Positions 4,711 to 55,600 of a stretch of DNA of 64,000 nt are shown one piece after another. How positions within the stretch are numbered: the stretch's first letter is position 1; each line of letters opens with the position of its first letter. The DNA is from Gracilaria domingensis (lineage: Eukaryota; Rhodophyta; Florideophyceae; Gracilariales; Gracilariaceae), in the NCBI GenBank assembly GCA_022539475.1, contig VCMS01000017.1, positions 363,641 through 427,640 on the forward strand. The letters are read 5' to 3'. The notes below the pieces were generated by a model. The model saw nothing but the letters and a program-made list of their open reading frames with translations. It did no database searches and had not been told where the DNA came from. Both the position numbers and the translations under genes were made by a program.

Positions 4711-5322
4711 CTAGCTGGAAAGTACGCCCGCGCAGTCAAGAATCAGTTCTATTATCCCAGGATGTGCGCCGATAGGAGGCTTCACTTCGTATGAAACATG
4801 AGGAAAGTTCTGTGCAGCCTCGGCTGTCAGTTGCGGGATATCTGATGTAACATGTCGCCCTGGTGACAGGAAGAAGGGCACGATAATTACATGCTTGGCA
4901 CCGTTTTGAACGCACAATTGCATACCTTCGGCGATTGTGGGAGACGCCAATTCCATGTGAGCGAAGTAAACAGGAATACTTGTTCGATTTTGAAGCTCTT
5001 GTGCTACTTCCTCGAGCATTGCGTTGGCTTTCGTTCGTTTTGAGCCATGGTCAACGAGAAGCAGCGCTGTATTTTCCTTGATTCCCTTGCCTTGCGTGCC
5101 AAATGTAAAGTTCATTGATAAGAGAAGCGGTGACAATCGGGATTCTGCTTTAGTGACAGTTGTAGTATTGCTTCTTCTTCTTCTAGGAGCCTGAAGAAAC
5201 CTATTATATCTTATGCTTTTGTTTTCTTGTAGAACATATCGACGTGAAACAGTCGATCGTCTTGCACTTGCGATCGCCAAAGAGAACGCTGGAACAATGC
5301 TGAGATTGAGACTATGATTCAT
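4711..5322 (-). CDS. sirB: Sirohydrochlorin ferrochelatase (SirB/CbiX type), probably plastid
   Basis: 203 aa from ATG 5322. Residues about 80-203 are a short CbiX/SirB chelatase domain. ALLLVDHGSKR carries the metal-binding His, followed by ELASPTIAEGM and the VPFFLSPGRHVTSDIP loop with the second His. Small SirB enzymes insert Fe2+ into sirohydrochlorin to make siroheme for sulfite and nitrite reductases. In plants and algae the enzyme is in the plastid. The first 70-80 residues are Ser/Arg-rich with few acids (MNHSLNLSIVPAFSLAIASA), consistent with a transit peptide. An in-frame ATG at 5439 would add 39 residues, but a donor-like AAG|GTATGT lies in that stretch (about 5383), so the 5' end could also involve an intron. 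I prefer 5322. Confidence 0.85.
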   Translation of the reverse strand: MNHSLNLSIVPAFSLAIASARRSTVSRRYVLQENKSIRYNRFLQAPRRRRSNTTTVTKAESRLSPLLLSMNFTFGTQGKGIKENTALLLVDHGSKRTKANAMLEEVAQELQNRTSIPVYFAHMELASPTIAEGMQLCVQNGAKHVIIVPFFLSPGRHVTSDIPQLTAEAAQNFPHVSYEVKPPIGAHPGIIELILDCAGVLSS

Positions 5323-5601
5323 CAGCACTTCACCAAGAAAAAAACGAGCTCTCCCTTGAGTTTGAATGATATCAGGACATACCTTAACATGCGAAGCATG
5401 TCCATGTTTGAACGGTAGTAGTGTGTCTTTGGTGGTCATCCCGTTTGGCCTCTGCGTCAGCCGCTTCCTGGTTGCTCAGTTCATAAGGGCCCAATAGATC
5501 TCTCAAGCTGAGAATTTTCTGGCTCCGGAGGTTTCCCTTATTTTGAAGTACGATGTATCGTTGGAATCTTTTGATCGCGTACCAGGGGTACAGTATCTCG
5601 T

Positions 5602-12676: not shown

Positions 12677-13807
12677 ACTACGTTTCTCCTTCTTCTTTAC
12701 GGTCAATTGGGGAAATATTTGCCCCCACTTACAAAGCAGCAAGGTGGCCTTTAAACTAAATGCAAACTCCCTCCCTCTCTTTCTCCAAAAACTTTGAATA
12801 GATAAGATTTTTGAAGGACACACTAGATCTGCCTTCTCGTGGTGTGTCTGACTTTCGATAAGGAAGCGAAACGGGTGTAGCACTGGGACTCTGAAGGAGA
12901 CCCACAGCTTTCGGTTTCTGAAAACTCAACTGGAATTTAGTTTTACTGTGCTCCATATAGATTCATGCAAATGCCGAAAAAGTGTTGGTCTTTCTGGTGA
13001 AGGAACGCTTCTTTGAAGATCGCTCTGCATTTACTTCTCGTTAAGCTACTGTGCCCATATAAGAGAGAGAGAGATGCAAACGTTCAGTAGGCATTATTGC
13101 AAGAATTGTGGAACGTGACCTCAATCGCTACAGCCTGTATCAGCAGTTGATAAACTACTTCTGGTACCTATGGGAAAAAAGCAAGTCGATCTGGTTACGG
13201 ACGTACAGCAAGAACAACTTATTAAGTTCTGTTTCGTTGGCCTTTCTCAAACGTATGCGTGGCGCTTAGCGCAGACATGAAATGAAAGACGAGACAATCC
13301 ATGGAAGTTCCGGAAACAAGTGCACCTCCCACAGGAAAAATCAGAGGAATTCAGACATACTTGTAGAGCTTGCCAGACCCTGAGATGATTTTCTTCATCG
13401 CCTCAGACCTTGAAGTTCGAAGGTTCCAAGAACGTTTATATCCCTTGTGTCGGACATTGTGGATGGTGTATTCTGTAGAGAGAAACAATCGTTATTAAGC
13501 TAAGCTAGAGGAATTCCTTGATAACCCCTGCTGAGCTCACAAGCGCGCTACCCTACGGGTATACTTGTCGAAATCAACGTCATTTTCAGCGTAGCACTTA
13601 GTCATTTGACTCGAAGGTCCGCGACGGCAAGACCAATACCTTGAGAATCCGGAACTTCCAAATCTGGATACCAGGTACTAGACAGCTACCTACTATCAGT
13701 TCTTCAGGATAAACGCAAGGCTCGTGCGGACAGCTGAGAAAAAGCAACAAACCTGGCCCCGTTTTCAATTTGAAGTTTCTTGGCTCAGGAATCATATTTT
13801 GTGCCGA

Positions 13808-15089
13808 ATGTTGAGCTTCCTCCACAATTCCGGATTGGGGGTTCCGCTCCTCGCTCAAAAGAGGGCATCTCGAAAGAAACTATGTCGTCTTATTTCCAGA
13901 TGTCGAATGAACCTAAACACAGCTCAACGAGGACTGTCGTCGTTAGAGAATGGCACGTGGTTCAAACTTATATGCGGGGCAAGTTATCACGACACACCCT
14001 CAATTCGCAATCCGTGTGAAGTGTATACCATTGCTGGTGTGGACTGCATTGATGTTGCGGCAGATGAGAGCATTATTCGGGCAGCACGAGAAGGAATCCA
14101 ATCAGGTGTCACTCGGGCGCTCAGCTATGAAAAACCCCTGTTGATGATTTCCATCAACGATGACTCTGATCCTCACTTTCGAAAAGCAGTATTTGAGGTC
14201 AAAGATTGTATTTCAGGCTGTCCACGTCCATGCCAGAAGGTTTGCCCTGCAGATGCAATAGATTTGACGGGAGCTATTACAGACCGTTGCTATGGATGTG
14301 GTAGATGTATTCCTGCATGTCCGATTAATATCGTGCACGCCGAAGAGTACGTTCATGCTCTACCATATGTGAAAACTCTTTTGTCAGGAGGGATAGATTG
14401 TTTGGAGATCCACACCGGAAAGGGACATTTGGAACAGTTTGAGGTGACTTGGAAAGGCATTGAAGATGCAGTTGTTGATAATCTAAAGATGGTTGCAGTT
14501 TCTTTTCCTGATCTTGGAACAGATGAGGAAATGGAAAGTGCATTGCGGCATATGTGGAACGTGATTTCGAAAAGCAAGCGGTTTCTGGAGGGCGGACTTG
14601 CACTGGTTTGGCAAACAGATGGTAGGCCTATGAGTGGAGACATCAGTCGCGGAACTGCCATTAAATCTGTTAAACTAGCGAAAAGAGTGATACGACTGCT
14701 TAAAGGAGGTAGCATTCCGGGACATGTTCAACTAGCTGGAGGGACAAACGCTTCCACTGTTGCGCGAATGCGTGCAGCTGGGTTATTGCGATCGTCAGCT
14801 GGAGAGCATGGCATGCAAAGTTCGATGCATACAGCAAGCGGTATTGCCGTCGGTGGTTATGCAAGGAAGGTAAGTCAAAGACCATTTTAGCCGTTGACCT
14901 GTGTGACGAAGGTTAAGATTCAATCTTGCTTTGGACAGCTAACGACGACCATTTTCTTTATTTGTGCAGATTGTGAAAGAGAAGCTGGGAAATAAGTTTG
15001 ATACCGTATTGAGCGAACCTGAACTAGAGGAGGCGGTAAAAGTTGCGTCAGAGCTGGTACTCGGCCTGAAGTCCAGATGTGAGGAGTGA
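13808..15089 (+). CDS. ldpA: LdpA-like iron-sulfur protein (two exons)
   Basis: Exons 13808-14869 and 14970-15089; 393 aa. The 100-nt intron runs GTAAGT..GTGCAG with a GCTAAC branch-like site and falls between codons (ARK|IVKEKLG). The product matches cyanobacterial LdpA (light-dependent period), an Fe-S protein that senses redox and resets the circadian clock. Two ferredoxin-like cysteine groups are present: CISGCPRPCQKVCP (about 134) and CYGCGRCIPACP (about 160). They are followed by the LdpA-specific part (GIDCLEIHTGKGHL, PVQLAGGTN-like HVQLAGGTNASTV, HTASGIAVGGYARK). The first 45 residues are Lys/Arg/Ser-rich without many acids and suggest plastid import. I reject a GTG 84 nt upstream as start. 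No KaiABC genes are in the window, so the role in a eukaryote is open. Confidence 0.88.
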
Positions 15090-43559: not shown

Positions 43560-45587
43560 ATGAATCCGCTGCAGTTCGTCCCCAGTCAGCACCTCGCGTC
43601 CCACGCCCCGTCCGCATCTTTCCTCCCCAATGCGCCCTGTGTCTGTTCCCGCCAGTCGTTCCTGCCACCGACGGCTTTCGGACAGCCCTCATTGAGCCCA
43701 TCGCAGTCGTGCTCCCCACTTCCAAATCGCCGCGCTAACCCACTGCGAAAGGAATACCTGCGACCTTCTTCTTCTGCCGATCCTCATCGACAAGTCGTAC
43801 GCGCCGTCGCCAACGACCACGTGCCACACAGAGTCGCCTTCGCCTCCTCCAAGCTCCCATCGCACATCATCGACACTGCCGTGAGAGCCGCAGATATAGC
43901 CGGTGTCATCATACGCAAGTACTTCAGAAAGCCTATCGAAATCTCGTTCAAGCATGATGAATCCCCAGTCACAAAAGCCGATAAGGAGGTCGAGTCTGCA
44001 ATACGTGCTCTCATCAACGAAGCATTCCCAGAACATACCATTATTGGCGAAGAACATGGAACTCTGGAGACACAACTTCAGAGCGAATACCAGTGGATTA
44101 TTGACCCTATCGATGGCACCAAAGCGTTTATGACGGGACGCCCAACCTTTGCCACCCTTATTGCTGTTGCGCGCCGCGGTGTACCACTGTTAGGAATCAT
44201 CGACCAGCCTATATCGCAAGAACGCTGGGTTGGTATTGCCGATGAGCAGACCACCCTCAACGGCAAGCCAGTCACAGTCAGAGACCCTCCCATGCTTTCG
44301 AAATGCGTACTGCAAGCTACCACCCCAGACATGTTTGTGGGATGGGACGGCGTCTTGTTCCGAAAGCTGTCCACACATGTCAAAGCAGTTGTGTATGGCT
44401 CAGATTGTTACGCGTATGCGATGCTCGCCTCTGGTTTTTCCGATCTTGTCGTTGAGGCCGATCTTAAAGTTTGGGACTTTATGGCCCTGGTCCCTGTTAT
44501 CACCGGTGCTGGTGGTTTCATGGGCGATTGGTGCGGAATGACATTATCTTTGCAAAGCGAAGGGCGTGTTATTGCTGCTTCGGGAGAAAAACTTTTTGGA
44601 GATGTGTCGCAAATTTTGAACCCGTTGGACGAAATGGGCTTGTATCCTGGAAGAACAAAAGCAACTTATGTTCCAGAGCTCGTGCCCGAGGATCCTGGGG
44701 ACGGAAGTGTAGAGAGTATGACAGGCTTTGGATACGGCACAGCCGAAGGCTCTGGTTATATTGTGAATGTACAAGCGCGTAGTGTCAACTCAAAATATTG
44801 CGACGTGCAGATAAACTGCCCTCGGTATCTTTCACTAAAAGACAGCGAGCTAATCAACATGGTGAAGAGCCAATTGCGGCGGGGGCAAATCATGTTAAAC
44901 ATAGATGTCAATGATGAAGAATCACCTGATGACGTCGTTCCTGTCAATGTCGACCGTAAAGCAGCTGCAGAGGTTCGTCAACTCCTCGACAAGCTCGCAG
45001 AAGCTGCGGGAATAACGAAAGAGCCATCTTTGTCTGATGTAATAAGGTTCTCAGAAGTTTTTAATCGATCTAATCAGGTTGCAACCGCTGAACACGTGCT
45101 CCCTGTCGCGAGGGCGGCCGTCATCAATGCAGTTCGGGATCTAAGGGTATCACGACGGAGAGAAGGAGTGTTTTTGCAATATGACATTTTGCAGAGAACA
45201 AGAAAGATTAAAAAGACGGCGGATGAAATAAGTCTTCGACTACCTCGACGAGTGGAAGCTAAGCGAAAGCACCTGAGAGATCTTACGGAAGGATTAACTG
45301 TAGGAATAGACTCTAACAGATTGGAAGCAGAAATTATGACTTATGCGGACCGGACAGACGTCACAGAGGAACTAACTCGATTATTGGCGCATGTTCACAT
45401 TTTTGAGCTCTCGTTTCTCCCAGCGGATGAACCCGTTGGACAGCGGCTGAACTTCCTGCTGCAAGAAATGCGCCGTGAAATCACCACATTGAGTAACAAA
45501 TGCGAGGATTCAGCTGTCAATCACCTAAGCGTAACGATCAAAGAAGAAATCGAAAAGATACGCGAGCAATGCGTCAACATTCGTTAG
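43560..45587 (+). CDS. HisN-type histidinol-phosphatase fused to YicC-type endoribonuclease
   Basis: 675 aa in one frame, ATG 43560. Residues 1-75 are Ser/Pro/Arg-rich and transit-like. Residues about 95-360 are an inositol-monophosphatase-fold HisN: VTKADKEVE, IIGEEHG, WIIDPIDGTKAFMTGRPTF (about 178-196) and ADLKVWDFMALVP. It should dephosphorylate histidinol-P in plastid histidine synthesis. Residues about 385-675 are a full-length YicC: ESMTGFGYG, ARSVNSKYCDVQINCPRYLS, LRRGQIMLNID, RTDVTEELTRLLAHV, EPVGQRLNFLLQEMRREITT and a NKCED..VNH..V..K.EIEKIREQ.QNI-like end. YicC proteins are bacterial endoribonucleases. The domains are joined by a short linker with no stop or intron. Codon character is even across the joint. 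I know of no pathway linking the two activities. Confidence 0.93.
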   Translation: MNPLQFVPSQHLASHAPSASFLPNAPCVCSRQSFLPPTAFGQPSLSPSQSCSPLPNRRANPLRKEYLRPSSSADPHRQVVRAVANDHVPHRVAFASSKLPSHIIDTAVRAADIAGVIIRKYFRKPIEISFKHDESPVTKADKEVESAIRALINEAFPEHTIIGEEHGTLETQLQSEYQWIIDPIDGTKAFMTGRPTFATLIAVARRGVPLLGIIDQPISQERWVGIADEQTTLNGKPVTVRDPPMLSKCVLQATTPDMFVGWDGVLFRKLSTHVKAVVYGSDCYAYAMLASGFSDLVVEADLKVWDFMALVPVITGAGGFMGDWCGMTLSLQSEGRVIAASGEKLFGDVSQILNPLDEMGLYPGRTKATYVPELVPEDPGDGSVESMTGFGYGTAEGSGYIVNVQARSVNSKYCDVQINCPRYLSLKDSELINMVKSQLRRGQIMLNIDVNDEESPDDVVPVNVDRKAAAEVRQLLDKLAEAAGITKEPSLSDVIRFSEVFNRSNQVATAEHVLPVARAAVINAVRDLRVSRRREGVFLQYDILQRTRKIKKTADEISLRLPRRVEAKRKHLRDLTEGLTVGIDSNRLEAEIMTYADRTDVTEELTRLLAHVHIFELSFLPADEPVGQRLNFLLQEMRREITTLSNKCEDSAVNHLSVTIKEEIEKIREQCVNIR

Positions 45588-46116
45588 AGTCCAACATTTT
45601 GTGAAAATCTTCCTCAGAGATTGGAGTGACGGTTGACAGCCCGGGAGCACATGCCAAGACGGTGATGATTACATGCTTGCAAAACGGCTCTGCTCGGAAA
45701 GAATAAGCTTTGCAATCACAGGAGCACTCGCATAGTTGGGCATGCTTATCGAAAGGAAGAGCACATAACTGGCCGTCTTTGTAGCGCAGGTCACGGAACA
45801 TGACAGTGTGGGTTGCCTGCTGGGCGACGACTTGAGCCAGTACATGTCCATCAAAGGTGAAGAATGAAACGAATGATTTCCAAGGCTTCTCTGAACTATG
45901 AGGGGCGTTATTCAAAGCGTGATCGACGCGCCGGAGAGCGGCCCGTGTGGCATTCGGACTTTTGTTGTGGAGTAGACCAACAGCTGATGTGGATGATGGC
46001 AATTTGGGTGATATGATGTGGTTAGAAGCTGATTGCCGGTGGAAGGATGTTGAAGAATTTGAACGCTGAAGTGCTGCAGTCAAGGCGAGGTGAAGTATGA
46101 AACCGTTGTTTTCCAT
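45574..46116 (-). CDS. SWIM zinc-finger protein, ZSWIM7/SWS1-like
   Basis: 180 aa, ATG 46116. The C-terminal third holds a SWIM finger CSCDCKAYSFRAEPFCKH (C-x-C-xn-C-x-H) followed by VIITVLACAPGLSTVTPISE and EEDFHKML. That matches ZSWIM7/SWS1, where the finger is followed by a short helix and a D/E-E-x-F segment. SWS1 proteins belong to Shu complexes that help RAD51 filaments in homologous recombination. The N-terminal 60 residues are Ser/Asn-rich and not informative. The last 14 nt overlap the end of the HisN-YicC gene on the other strand. Other SWIM proteins (MULE-derived, for example) are much longer, which favours ZSWIM7. Confidence 0.68.
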   Translation of the reverse strand: MENNGFILHLALTAALQRSNSSTSFHRQSASNHIISPKLPSSTSAVGLLHNKSPNATRAALRRVDHALNNAPHSSEKPWKSFVSFFTFDGHVLAQVVAQQATHTVMFRDLRYKDGQLCALPFDKHAQLCECSCDCKAYSFRAEPFCKHVIITVLACAPGLSTVTPISEEDFHKMLDSNEC

Positions 46117-53820: not shown

Positions 53821-54903
53821 ACAACGGTAGCGTTAGAAAGCTCGAAAATGAAATCTCCGCCACGTTTACGTCAAACAACTTCCGTGCTACAGACATCCTA
53901 ATGAGTCGACCATCGCCAAAATGGTTCCGTGCGGCGCACCCCGTATCCGATGCACAGTGCTCATGTGAATAACACAAAGGCCGCAACGCAGCGTTCATAG
54001 CGACCAAGCACACCGCACGAGTCGCAATGGCCAAGCAGCGTTTTCTTTGAGAAGCGTGAAACGTGCAACATTGCGAGCCACGACAGCAAAATGCATGCTC
54101 CTGTCGCACCAACGGCTTCGAAATAGAAAGAATCCCGATGCCGCAGACGTGCCTTGCACTCACAAAAAACCCGATTTGAGAGAGAACAAACCGTGCGACA
54201 TGGAAGTTTCGGCAACAGCGGTGACCAGATCACTCACCGCAAGCGACGCGCACAGCGACGAGTTGCGCAGCAAGTTAGTGACAACAAGCGCACCACTGCG
54301 GGGCACATACAACGGAAGCGACAGAAATGGGATGAGCGTCACGCAGCGCACCGCAAACAGCCACATGATAAGGTTATGCCAGACACCTACGCAGACAATA
54401 TGCAACTCTCGTTGCCACGATTGTAACTTGAGATTGAAGAGCTTGGCGAAAGCAGCAGGGAATAGAAACGCCAGAAACACACCCACGCACAGCACGGCTA
54501 CATCGTACACAAGAGCACTCAGCAGATGATCTATCTCGTGCACTAGCACTTAGCAGAGATGCGCTAGAATGAAAAGAGGCAGATCAGTGTGGCGCAGCGT
54601 GAGCGCCAGAAGGCGAGGAACAAGCGTTGGTGGAGCGACTGTCGACTTGGTCGACGACGCGATGACACGCGATGTGACGTTTGGAAGCGTGTGACGCGGG
54701 CGAGAGCGACGGGAAAGCCGATGATCGGCACGTGTAGTCGACGCGTCATCGATGGCAGTGTCGTTGTTCACCACCAACAGCTGCTCATATGCGCCACCAC
54801 CACCACGATAGACACTCAGCGTGGCGACGACGTTGAACAATAACGCGACACATACAAACGGAGTGGGAACGTAACGACGAAAGCGCCAGCCGTGTAGAAC
54901 CAT
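53821..54903 (-). pseudogene. Site-2 protease (M50, MBTPS2-like), interrupted
   Basis: Starting at ATG 54903 the frame encodes a membrane anchor (YVPTPFVCVALLFNVVATLS). It runs to a TAA at 54550-54552 and continues in the same frame with VHEIDHLLSALVYDV, the zinc site HExxH. FLAFLFPAAFAKLF and LHIVCVGVWHNLIM follow, which are S2P landmarks. At 54163 the frame ends in TGA; one frame over, the Cys-rich luminal part goes on (CCRGSQCCTF, CYSHEHCASDTGCAARN) to FSSFLTLPL and a donor GTAAGT. S2P cleaves membrane-tethered transcription factors. The in-frame TAA falls in the helix just before HExxH, and the second break is beside a T6 run. No clear NPDG/LDG zinc-ligand segment was found downstream. 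Pseudogene, assembly error or unrecognised splicing are all possible. Confidence 0.6.
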
Positions 54904-55123
54904 GATCTGTTCTTCGCCTTCTATTCCGGCGTACAAGAGCGCGCCGCGCCTCTGTGTGCTCCCGTGCCCGTCGCCCTTGCTCTCCGCCACTGCCGATTCA
55001 CCCCAGCAGCGCAATGCGACGACTTGCGGTTTTTGGTTGCGCTGCTTGCGTGTTTTGCGCTTGAACAAACGCAAAGCAACGAGAACGAATCGCTCAACGC
55101 GTACATCGCCGCCAGCACAGACC

Positions 55124-55600
55124 ATGTTCGAGCAGTACAACTCGCTTTTGTTCGGCGACATCTCCGTGGCCAAGGCGACGTTTCGCGGCGCAATCGCCAT
55201 GCATGGAAAGGCTGAACTGGCCGACTTTGACATGGGCTCAAACAAGATGTGCGACAAAGATCGCAGGGCCGTGAGGGTGGGCGCCTCGCTTGCGACGCGC
55301 ATGGACTCCATCCACGGCGGCTACTCCGTGGTAGGCAGCGGCAACGAGATGCATCACAGCATGTGCATGAGGTGCTCCAACCGCGCGAAACAGTACCACG
55401 TGGTGCACAACGGCAACATGGAGTTCGACAATGTGCGGCGCTTGGTGGTGCGTGAGGCGGCCGAGATGTGCGTCGCCGCGCTGACGGGCAGCGTGAAGAC
55501 GATCAGCGGCATCATGGCGTTCACGCAGGGCAAGAAGAGCTTCTTGTGCTACACGTTCCTCAAGCTGCGCACGGACAAGCTGCGGCTGTTGAATCTCTGA
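55124..55600 (+). CDS. Unknown 158-aa protein
   Basis: 158 aa from ATG 55124; an in-frame ATG at 54902 would overlap the divergent protease start and add low-complexity sequence, so it is less likely. No family is recognised. The sequence is compact and mixed alpha/beta in appearance (FEQYNSLLFGDISVAKATFR, EMCVAALTGSVKTISGIMAF, GKKSFLCYTFLKLRTDKLRL), Met-rich, with a CMRC pair. Third codon positions are strongly G/C, like true genes nearby, which supports coding. No signal peptide or membrane span is seen. Confidence 0.55.
   Translation: MFEQYNSLLFGDISVAKATFRGAIAMHGKAELADFDMGSNKMCDKDRRAVRVGASLATRMDSIHGGYSVVGSGNEMHHSMCMRCSNRAKQYHVVHNGNMEFDNVRRLVVREAAEMCVAALTGSVKTISGIMAFTQGKKSFLCYTFLKLRTDKLRLLNL

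Follow-up and report, generated by a model that had tools for sequence, protein, structure and literature searches.

Results

A single reading frame joins two enzyme families

The window, meaning the whole 64,000-nucleotide stretch of DNA analysed here, lies on a contig of 620,893 bp (C17) in an assembly of 77,892,253 bases and 680 contigs. On its forward strand, positions 43560-45587 form an uninterrupted open reading frame (ORF) of 675 codons, which runs from an ATG to a stop codon at 45585-45587 and encodes 675 amino acids. The earlier note on this DNA had described one nuclear frame holding both HisN and YicC, and the ORF with its domain matches confirms that observation. Using hmmscan, Pfam placed Inositol_P at residues 101-343 (E 8.4e-52), YicC-like_N at residues 384-539 (E 2.6e-31), and YicC-like_C at residues 561-674 (E 2.4e-31). 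The protein opens with a leader of about 96 residues (43560-43847) that is presumed from its composition to be a plastid transit peptide. A HisN/HISN7 histidinol-phosphatase domain follows at residues ~97-355 (43848-44624), as delimited and assigned by Pfam, NCBIfam, PDB, tree, and alignment evidence. A 28-residue linker (residues 356-383, 44625-44708), measured from the aligned end of HisN to the Pfam start of YicC, leads into the YicC-like N-terminal domain (44709-45176) and then the YicC-like C-terminal domain with its Glu/Arg cluster (45240-45581).

Pro, Gly, and acidic residues each occur among those of the linker. The stretch 44560-44780 is free of the donor motifs GTRAGT, GTATGT, GTAAG, and GTGAG. 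Around the linker there are 80 weaker GT..AG pairs enclosing at least 50 bases, 21 of them with a length that is a multiple of three; a frame-keeping intron within the linker is possible, yet the fusion would stay intact. Third-position GC is 0.51 at the end of HisN, 0.44 in the linker, and 0.44 in YicC, with no jump at the joint. An in-frame ATG at 44718-44720 encodes Met387, which aligns with Met5 of E. coli YicC and is the likeliest site at which translation of a free YicC could begin. Past the second domain, a convergent ORF of 180 amino acids (45574-46116, reverse strand) overlaps the stop of the fusion by 14 bases at its own 3' end. It has a SWIM-like CxC...CKH pattern by eye and is without a Pfam match.

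Host, leader, and gene copies

Phycobilisome-linker matches number 14 in the genome, with 4 on contig C680 and 10 on other contigs. C680 spans 179,836 bp and, by eye, holds atpB, atpE, apcE, petA, and other plastid genes in one 10-kb stretch. Its ApcE was confirmed and has 5y6p as its nearest PDB entry, which we take to come from Griffithsia pacifica, a florideophyte. Phycobilisome linkers both on and outside the plastid contig identify the host as a red alga, and the ApcE match makes a florideophyte probable. C680 also encodes RNase E (E 6.4e-81), so a bacterial-type RNA-decay enzyme is present in this plastid.

A Phe near the start marks red-algal plastid preproteins. The leader has Phe at position 6, is rich in Ser, Pro, and Ala (Ser and Pro make up 22 of the first 60 residues), and contains no acidic residue before position 65, leaving zero in the first 60. 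It thereby shows both the early Phe and the scarcity of acidic residues seen in such preproteins, and the transit-like character reported earlier matches this composition and Phe6. As a yardstick, 5 of the 10 phycobilisome-linker matches outside the plastid contig were taken; the 4 that could be read (L011-L014) all have a Phe within their first 6 residues. Arabidopsis IMPL2/HISN7 (At4g39120) is plastid-located by way of a 77-residue N-terminal extension (PMC4288329), which is a close parallel of the ~96-residue algal leader.

The profile PF03755 matched once in the whole genome, and a second YicC was not found. Searching the genome with the whole protein returned 4 other places, all IMPase-like, at no more than 37% identity and with E no better than 2e-12; two of these gave the same score and match coordinates on different contigs (C104 and C494). 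Two PHP matches were considered as a PHP-type histidinol-phosphatase and rejected, as they belong instead to a nuclear DnaE gene and its decayed copy. Because the other IMPase-like places are distant and the PHP matches are DnaE, no HisN-type phosphatase besides the fusion was found in the genome, IMPase- and PHP-type enzymes being those covered.

The N-terminal half is a predicted plant-type histidinol-phosphatase

HISN7 performs the eighth step of histidine synthesis. The best PDB relative of the HisN half is 5eq7 (3.5e-71), labelled inositol monophosphatase in the table and presumably the Medicago histidinol-phosphatase; identity to the Medicago segment is 49% over 242 residues. The NCBIfam HisN profile TIGR02067 scored the half at 253 bits, below its cut-off of 275.15. 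Among partial segments used as yardsticks, Medicago scored above the cut-off (297.4) and Zymomonas below it (265.3). HolPase activity of the Zymomonas protein is reported in PMC5516325. Given that an active HolPase also falls below the cut-off, the shortfall does not exclude membership in HisN.

By alignment, the IMPase metal site is present as GEE at 163-165, DPIDGT at 182-187, and D306. The further HisN motif residues K131, D133, S135-T138, and C283 are kept, as are the HolPase-specific motif 5 (D282-C-Y284-A-Y286) and the Leu of motif 6 (L310), taking the motif residues described in PMC5516325. In the alignment, bacterial HisN proteins stop at about algal residue 355, which indicates a complete domain; the algal domain ends in 'LNP', as does one bacterial HisN (L118). 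The Pfam match, the motif residues, and these aligned ends thus agree with the earlier claim of a complete HisN domain. In a 36-row tree, the alga, Medicago, Zymomonas, and seven alphaproteobacterial sequences formed a 10-row clade with support of 100/100, although the pairing of the alga with Medicago itself was weak (83/56); the alphaproteobacteria in this tree came from plasmid records only, plants were represented by one species, and the sampling was without cyanobacteria. The best bacterial identity of the HisN half was 46.9% among the matches listed, and a search from the HisN alignment returned 1 distant relative. From these comparisons, we predict that the HisN half is a plant-type HISN7 acting as a histidinol-phosphatase.

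The C-terminal half is a full-length member of the YicC family

The YicC half scored 173.8 bits against NCBIfam TIGR00255 (YicC), above the cut-off of 167.5, with coverage of profile positions 2-290 of 291. This score and the presence of both Pfam domains place it in the YicC family, and they bear out the view that YicC is complete and of bacterial length. Its best PDB relatives are the E. coli YicC entries 8ver, 8ves, and 8hvj. YicC/RNase CS is widespread in bacteria; YicC was found in 5 of 14 control genomes, archaea included. Its cellular function is given as unknown in PMC10793500, which describes the protein as a dimer of trimers.

The same source lists ten E. coli residues whose Ala mutants are inactive: M5, N28, R30, E216, E217, F244, R251, E252, R280, and E281 (PMC10793500). 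Their algal counterparts are M387, N410, K412, E603, E604, F632, R639, E640, R668, and E669, so that 9 of 10 are identical. The exception replaces R30 with K412, and Lys also occupies this position in 22 of 128 bacterial rows. The alga therefore has both the catalytic Glu cluster (E603, E604, E640, E669) and the basic RNA-binding residues (R639, R668, K412). Across 91 bacterial rows, from which one of the 92 bacterial loci discussed below (L095) was excluded for a stop inside its match, the algal sequence agrees with the bacteria in 23 of the 24 invariant columns; for columns conserved at 97%, 90%, and 80%, it agrees in 26 of 28, 32 of 35, and 39 of 45, respectively. The bacterial minimum for columns conserved at 90% is also 32.

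Three substitutions stand out against the bacterial rows. Gln405 occupies a site that is acidic in all 128 bacterial rows (126 Glu, 2 Asp), Thr642 replaces an Asn found in 128 of 128, and Asn646 takes the place of Ser in 113 rows, Ala in 13, and Val in 2. Gln405 and Thr642 depart from what is invariant in bacteria, at positions not known to define the YicC family; the E. coli equivalents, E23 and N254 by our own count, are not named in PMC10793500. With these two substitutions and the long branch described below, catalysis may be altered or lost. In addition, Met387, the counterpart of the essential Met5, is 3 residues from the linker, and the clamshell could be obstructed by so large a domain on the N-terminal side. 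On the balance of retained and substituted residues, RNase activity of the YicC half is likely but not certain.

The two halves have different bacterial kin

The phylogeny of each half had been proposed as a check, and the two halves went separate ways: HisN fell with plant and alphaproteobacterial sequences and YicC on the FCB side. In a tree with 124 bacterial rows, algal YicC joined a clade of Bacteroidota, Rhodothermota, Balneolota, Chlorobiota, Ignavibacteriota, and a few others (95/97) on a branch of 1.51, while a 31-row Rhodothermales-type clade (100/99) left the alga out. A second tree was built from 60 rows out of the 128 bacterial ones, among them 3 alphaproteobacteria and 4 gamma/betaproteobacteria. 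Here the alga grouped with FCB rows at 99/92, with nested nodes at 96/96 and 95/87, and fell inside a 12-row Rhodothermales-type set (100/94). Its branch of 1.86 was the second longest of 61, against a median of 0.8. Both trees put the alga on the FCB side, and they differ in where exactly it falls there.

We considered an alphaproteobacterial (mitochondrial) origin of YicC, which was rejected by the tree and by the AU test (p 0.0114, with only 3 alphaproteobacteria). Grouping algal YicC with all 7 proteobacterial rows was also rejected (AU p 0.0257), whereas a placement outside the FCB rows as their sister was not (AU p 0.461); the groups in these tests were named after the first tree had been seen, and long branches are in play. 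For cyanobacteria, YicC_N had no match in the one control, Synechococcus elongatus, and the YicC trees were without cyanobacteria. The best full-length bacterial identities were 44% (G172) and 42% (G039), both from one order, in which 91 of 114 genomes match the YicC half at an E limit of 1e-20. The named Rhodothermales rows (L038 and L061) group with this order in both trees. These Rhodothermales-type sequences are the closest full-length bacterial relatives found, and they differ from the algal gene in being bacterial and without a HisN fusion. Judging by the trees and identities, YicC most likely came from the FCB side, and Rhodothermales are the foremost candidate donors.

Bacterial yicC loci and published descriptions

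We compared 92 bacterial yicC loci, comprising 80 from genome_contigs, 6 from viral_contigs, and 6 from plasmid records, with flanks of up to 4 kb a side. The 80 from genome_contigs are the best 80 of at least 562 confirmed, so that sampling leans to close relatives. A HisN fusion occurred in 0 of the 92. An open frame of more than 60 amino acids extended upstream of yicC in 5 of the 92, reaching at most 115. Two Verrucomicrobiota loci (L066 6146-6817 and L089 4343-4999) have an IMPase-family gene 1.3 and 2.3 kb from yicC, respectively, on the same strand and unfused. In all three annotated loci showing the downstream neighbour (L028, L192, and L193), gmk adjoins yicC.

No match spanning both domains was present among the matches listed for 148 genomes from one phylum (that of G003), nor in a further 9 genomes. 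Scans of viral_contigs with the HisN half alone and with the YicC half alone gave no confirmed match. In the order that includes G039, an 817-aa open frame with yicC (G242:C519, L194) was examined as a candidate fusion, and on reading proved to be without HisN; other long yicC frames there have 535 and 481 aa, the 817-aa frame being the only one read. This locus is a high-GC bacterial yicC with an unrelated open frame of ~500 aa upstream (GC 0.66), and such long frames are not fusions. Inheritance of an operon or of a bacterial fusion is ruled against by the unfused bacterial loci and the separate kin of the halves. The separate bacterial affinities of HisN and YicC make transfer of an operon unlikely, and the join probably arose within the algal line.

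The absence of any described eukaryotic fusion of this kind, which the earlier note had stated, agrees with a text search that covered titles and the starts of abstracts, with few subscription journals among them, and found no description of a eukaryotic YicC or a HisN-YicC fusion. Publications that came up included one naming yicC as an unannotated bacterial core gene (PMC10411014), a proteome table from pig in which one spot, of unstated sequence origin, is given as 'DUF1732' (PMC4640832), and a phage ORF matching at E 0.35 (PMC1524935). The main text of PMC3655940 does not contain the term searched for. To the extent of this text search the domain architecture is new, and both component families are known. 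Other red algae may well have entries of this kind that lack annotation.

Discussion

Origin and possible role of the fusion

The explanation that we hold to be somewhat better than even is that the protein is a plastid HISN7 with a C-terminal YicC (RNase CS), in which a yicC acquired laterally came to be imported into the plastid through fusion to a resident enzyme. At first, the nucleus would have encoded a HisN of the plant/alphaproteobacterial type that was already addressed to the plastid. A yicC from a bacterium on the Bacteroidota/Rhodothermota/Chlorobiota side would then have landed behind it, and a short linker would have joined the newcomer in frame, so that it could enter the plastid although it lacked its own transit peptide. 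We infer that the gene is transcribed as one unit and that the leader imports a single preprotein, whose HisN part would make histidinol in the stroma. YicC, if active, would be a Mg-dependent hexameric endoribonuclease acting on plastid RNA hairpins beside the plastid-encoded RNase E. Any benefit of the linkage may lie in targeting, as it could be kept simply because YicC, once detached, would be left in the cytosol. The 28-residue linker and the matching symmetry of HisN dimers and a YicC dimer of trimers could permit one complex; a steric cost or later cleavage is possible, with the N-terminus of YicC so close to the counterpart of Met5. A bolder form of this explanation, in which a eukaryotic plastid RNase CS derived from a Rhodothermota-like bacterium forms one hexamer with HisN and plastid RNA decay depends on it, strikes us as doubtful.

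The halves might instead act separately, either because two transcripts are made, with YicC starting at Met387, or because the preprotein is cut in the linker after import. A start at the Met5 position would yield a nearly complete YicC, and the Pro, Gly, and acidic residues of the linker would suit such a separation, whereas YicC beginning there would be left without a transit peptide, and the linker holds neither a stop nor a strong splice-donor motif. We consider separate action somewhat unlikely, noting that it overlaps in part with our preferred explanation. Alternatively, the fused YicC may no longer be an RNase, and its hexamer may scaffold HisN dimers or bind RNA without cutting it. 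Gln405 and Thr642 at bacterially conserved positions, Asn646, and the long branch would fit a change in function, and the symmetry of the YicC dimer of trimers could match that of a HisN homodimer, the form described for Zymomonas HisN in PMC5516325. All four Glu residues whose mutants are inactive are nevertheless kept, as are two of the three RNA-binding Arg residues, the third being a Lys shared with some bacteria, and we regard such a loss of cleavage as unlikely.

Under a metabolic coupling, the link to HisN would make the cutting of RNA by YicC either respond to histidine synthesis or control it; the physical linkage in one frame is all that speaks for this. The halves have separate kin, the HisN query near the 92 yicC loci gave two IMPase-family genes and no fusion, and the annotated loci put yicC beside gmk; we consider coupling very unlikely. 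The earlier note had offered two interpretations, a link between histidine synthesis and RNA decay or a simple targeting partnership. The separate kin of the halves fit the targeting partnership better, and nothing was seen that speaks for the link. Its account therefore stands in part, in that the frame, the leader, and the two complete domains hold up, and the targeting reading is the better fit of the two. An artificial join, produced by a chimeric assembly or by contaminating bacterial DNA, is extremely improbable. The assembly does have some stretches that are nearly identical between contigs, such as those on C104 and C494, but the join is in frame and free of stops, lies among eukaryotic genes on a contig of several hundred kilobases, and is crossed without a jump in third-position GC. 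Contamination is further opposed by the distance of both halves from bacterial sequence among the matches listed.

Comparison with known proteins and significance

The algal protein shares with plant HISN7 (5eq7; At4g39120) the HolPase motif residues and, as in Arabidopsis, an N-terminal plastid extension. Plant HISN7 is the phosphatase alone, whereas the algal protein adds the linker and a 291-residue YicC. With bacterial YicC/YloC, or RNase CS (E. coli 8ver; TIGR00255), it has in common a full-length match above the cut-off and nearly all of the essential residues. It differs from them in that the gene is nuclear and eukaryotic, YicC is the C-terminal part of a fusion whose N-terminus is not free, and Gln405 and Thr642 are substituted. 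Histidine enzymes fused in frame to a second domain have been described: in plant HISN2 (PMC8102479) and in E. coli HisNB (PMC5516325), both parts serve histidine synthesis. In contrast, the partner in the algal fusion belongs to an RNase family.

If the bolder form of our explanation is true, no YicC-type ribonuclease would have been shown in a eukaryote before, within the reach of the text searches. A eukaryotic organelle that keeps a copy of YicC and has few RNAs would be a convenient system in which to look for the substrates of YicC. The gene also stands as a clear example, still a candidate one, of a lateral gene gaining organelle targeting by fusion to a resident preprotein rather than by a new transit peptide, and its two parents can be recognised as coming from different bacterial lines. 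Conservation across red algae, if it holds, would mean a shared innovation in plastid RNA metabolism.

Other genes in the window and genome

The DnaE gene is a single-exon ORF of at least 1696 aa with a transit-like leader (G000:C73, L189 3-5090, reverse strand, and L186). Its PHP, DNA_pol3_alpha (9.8e-94), and finger domains are those of a bacterial-type DNA polymerase III alpha subunit. The second copy is decayed, with in-frame TGA codons (G000:C325:94453-94983, L187). DnaE in a red-algal nucleus may merit separate study. LdpA provides the cyanobacterial light input to the clock, and an LdpA gene with LdpA_C (3.7e-43) and its Fe-S domain is present at 13724-14890 (forward strand) of the window, on a nuclear contig. 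The window also includes a CbiX-type chelatase in a single open frame at 4711-5439 (reverse strand, 3.4e-29), and a putative ice-binding-like adhesive domain, pAdhesive_15, at 54902-55600 (forward strand, 3.5e-7).
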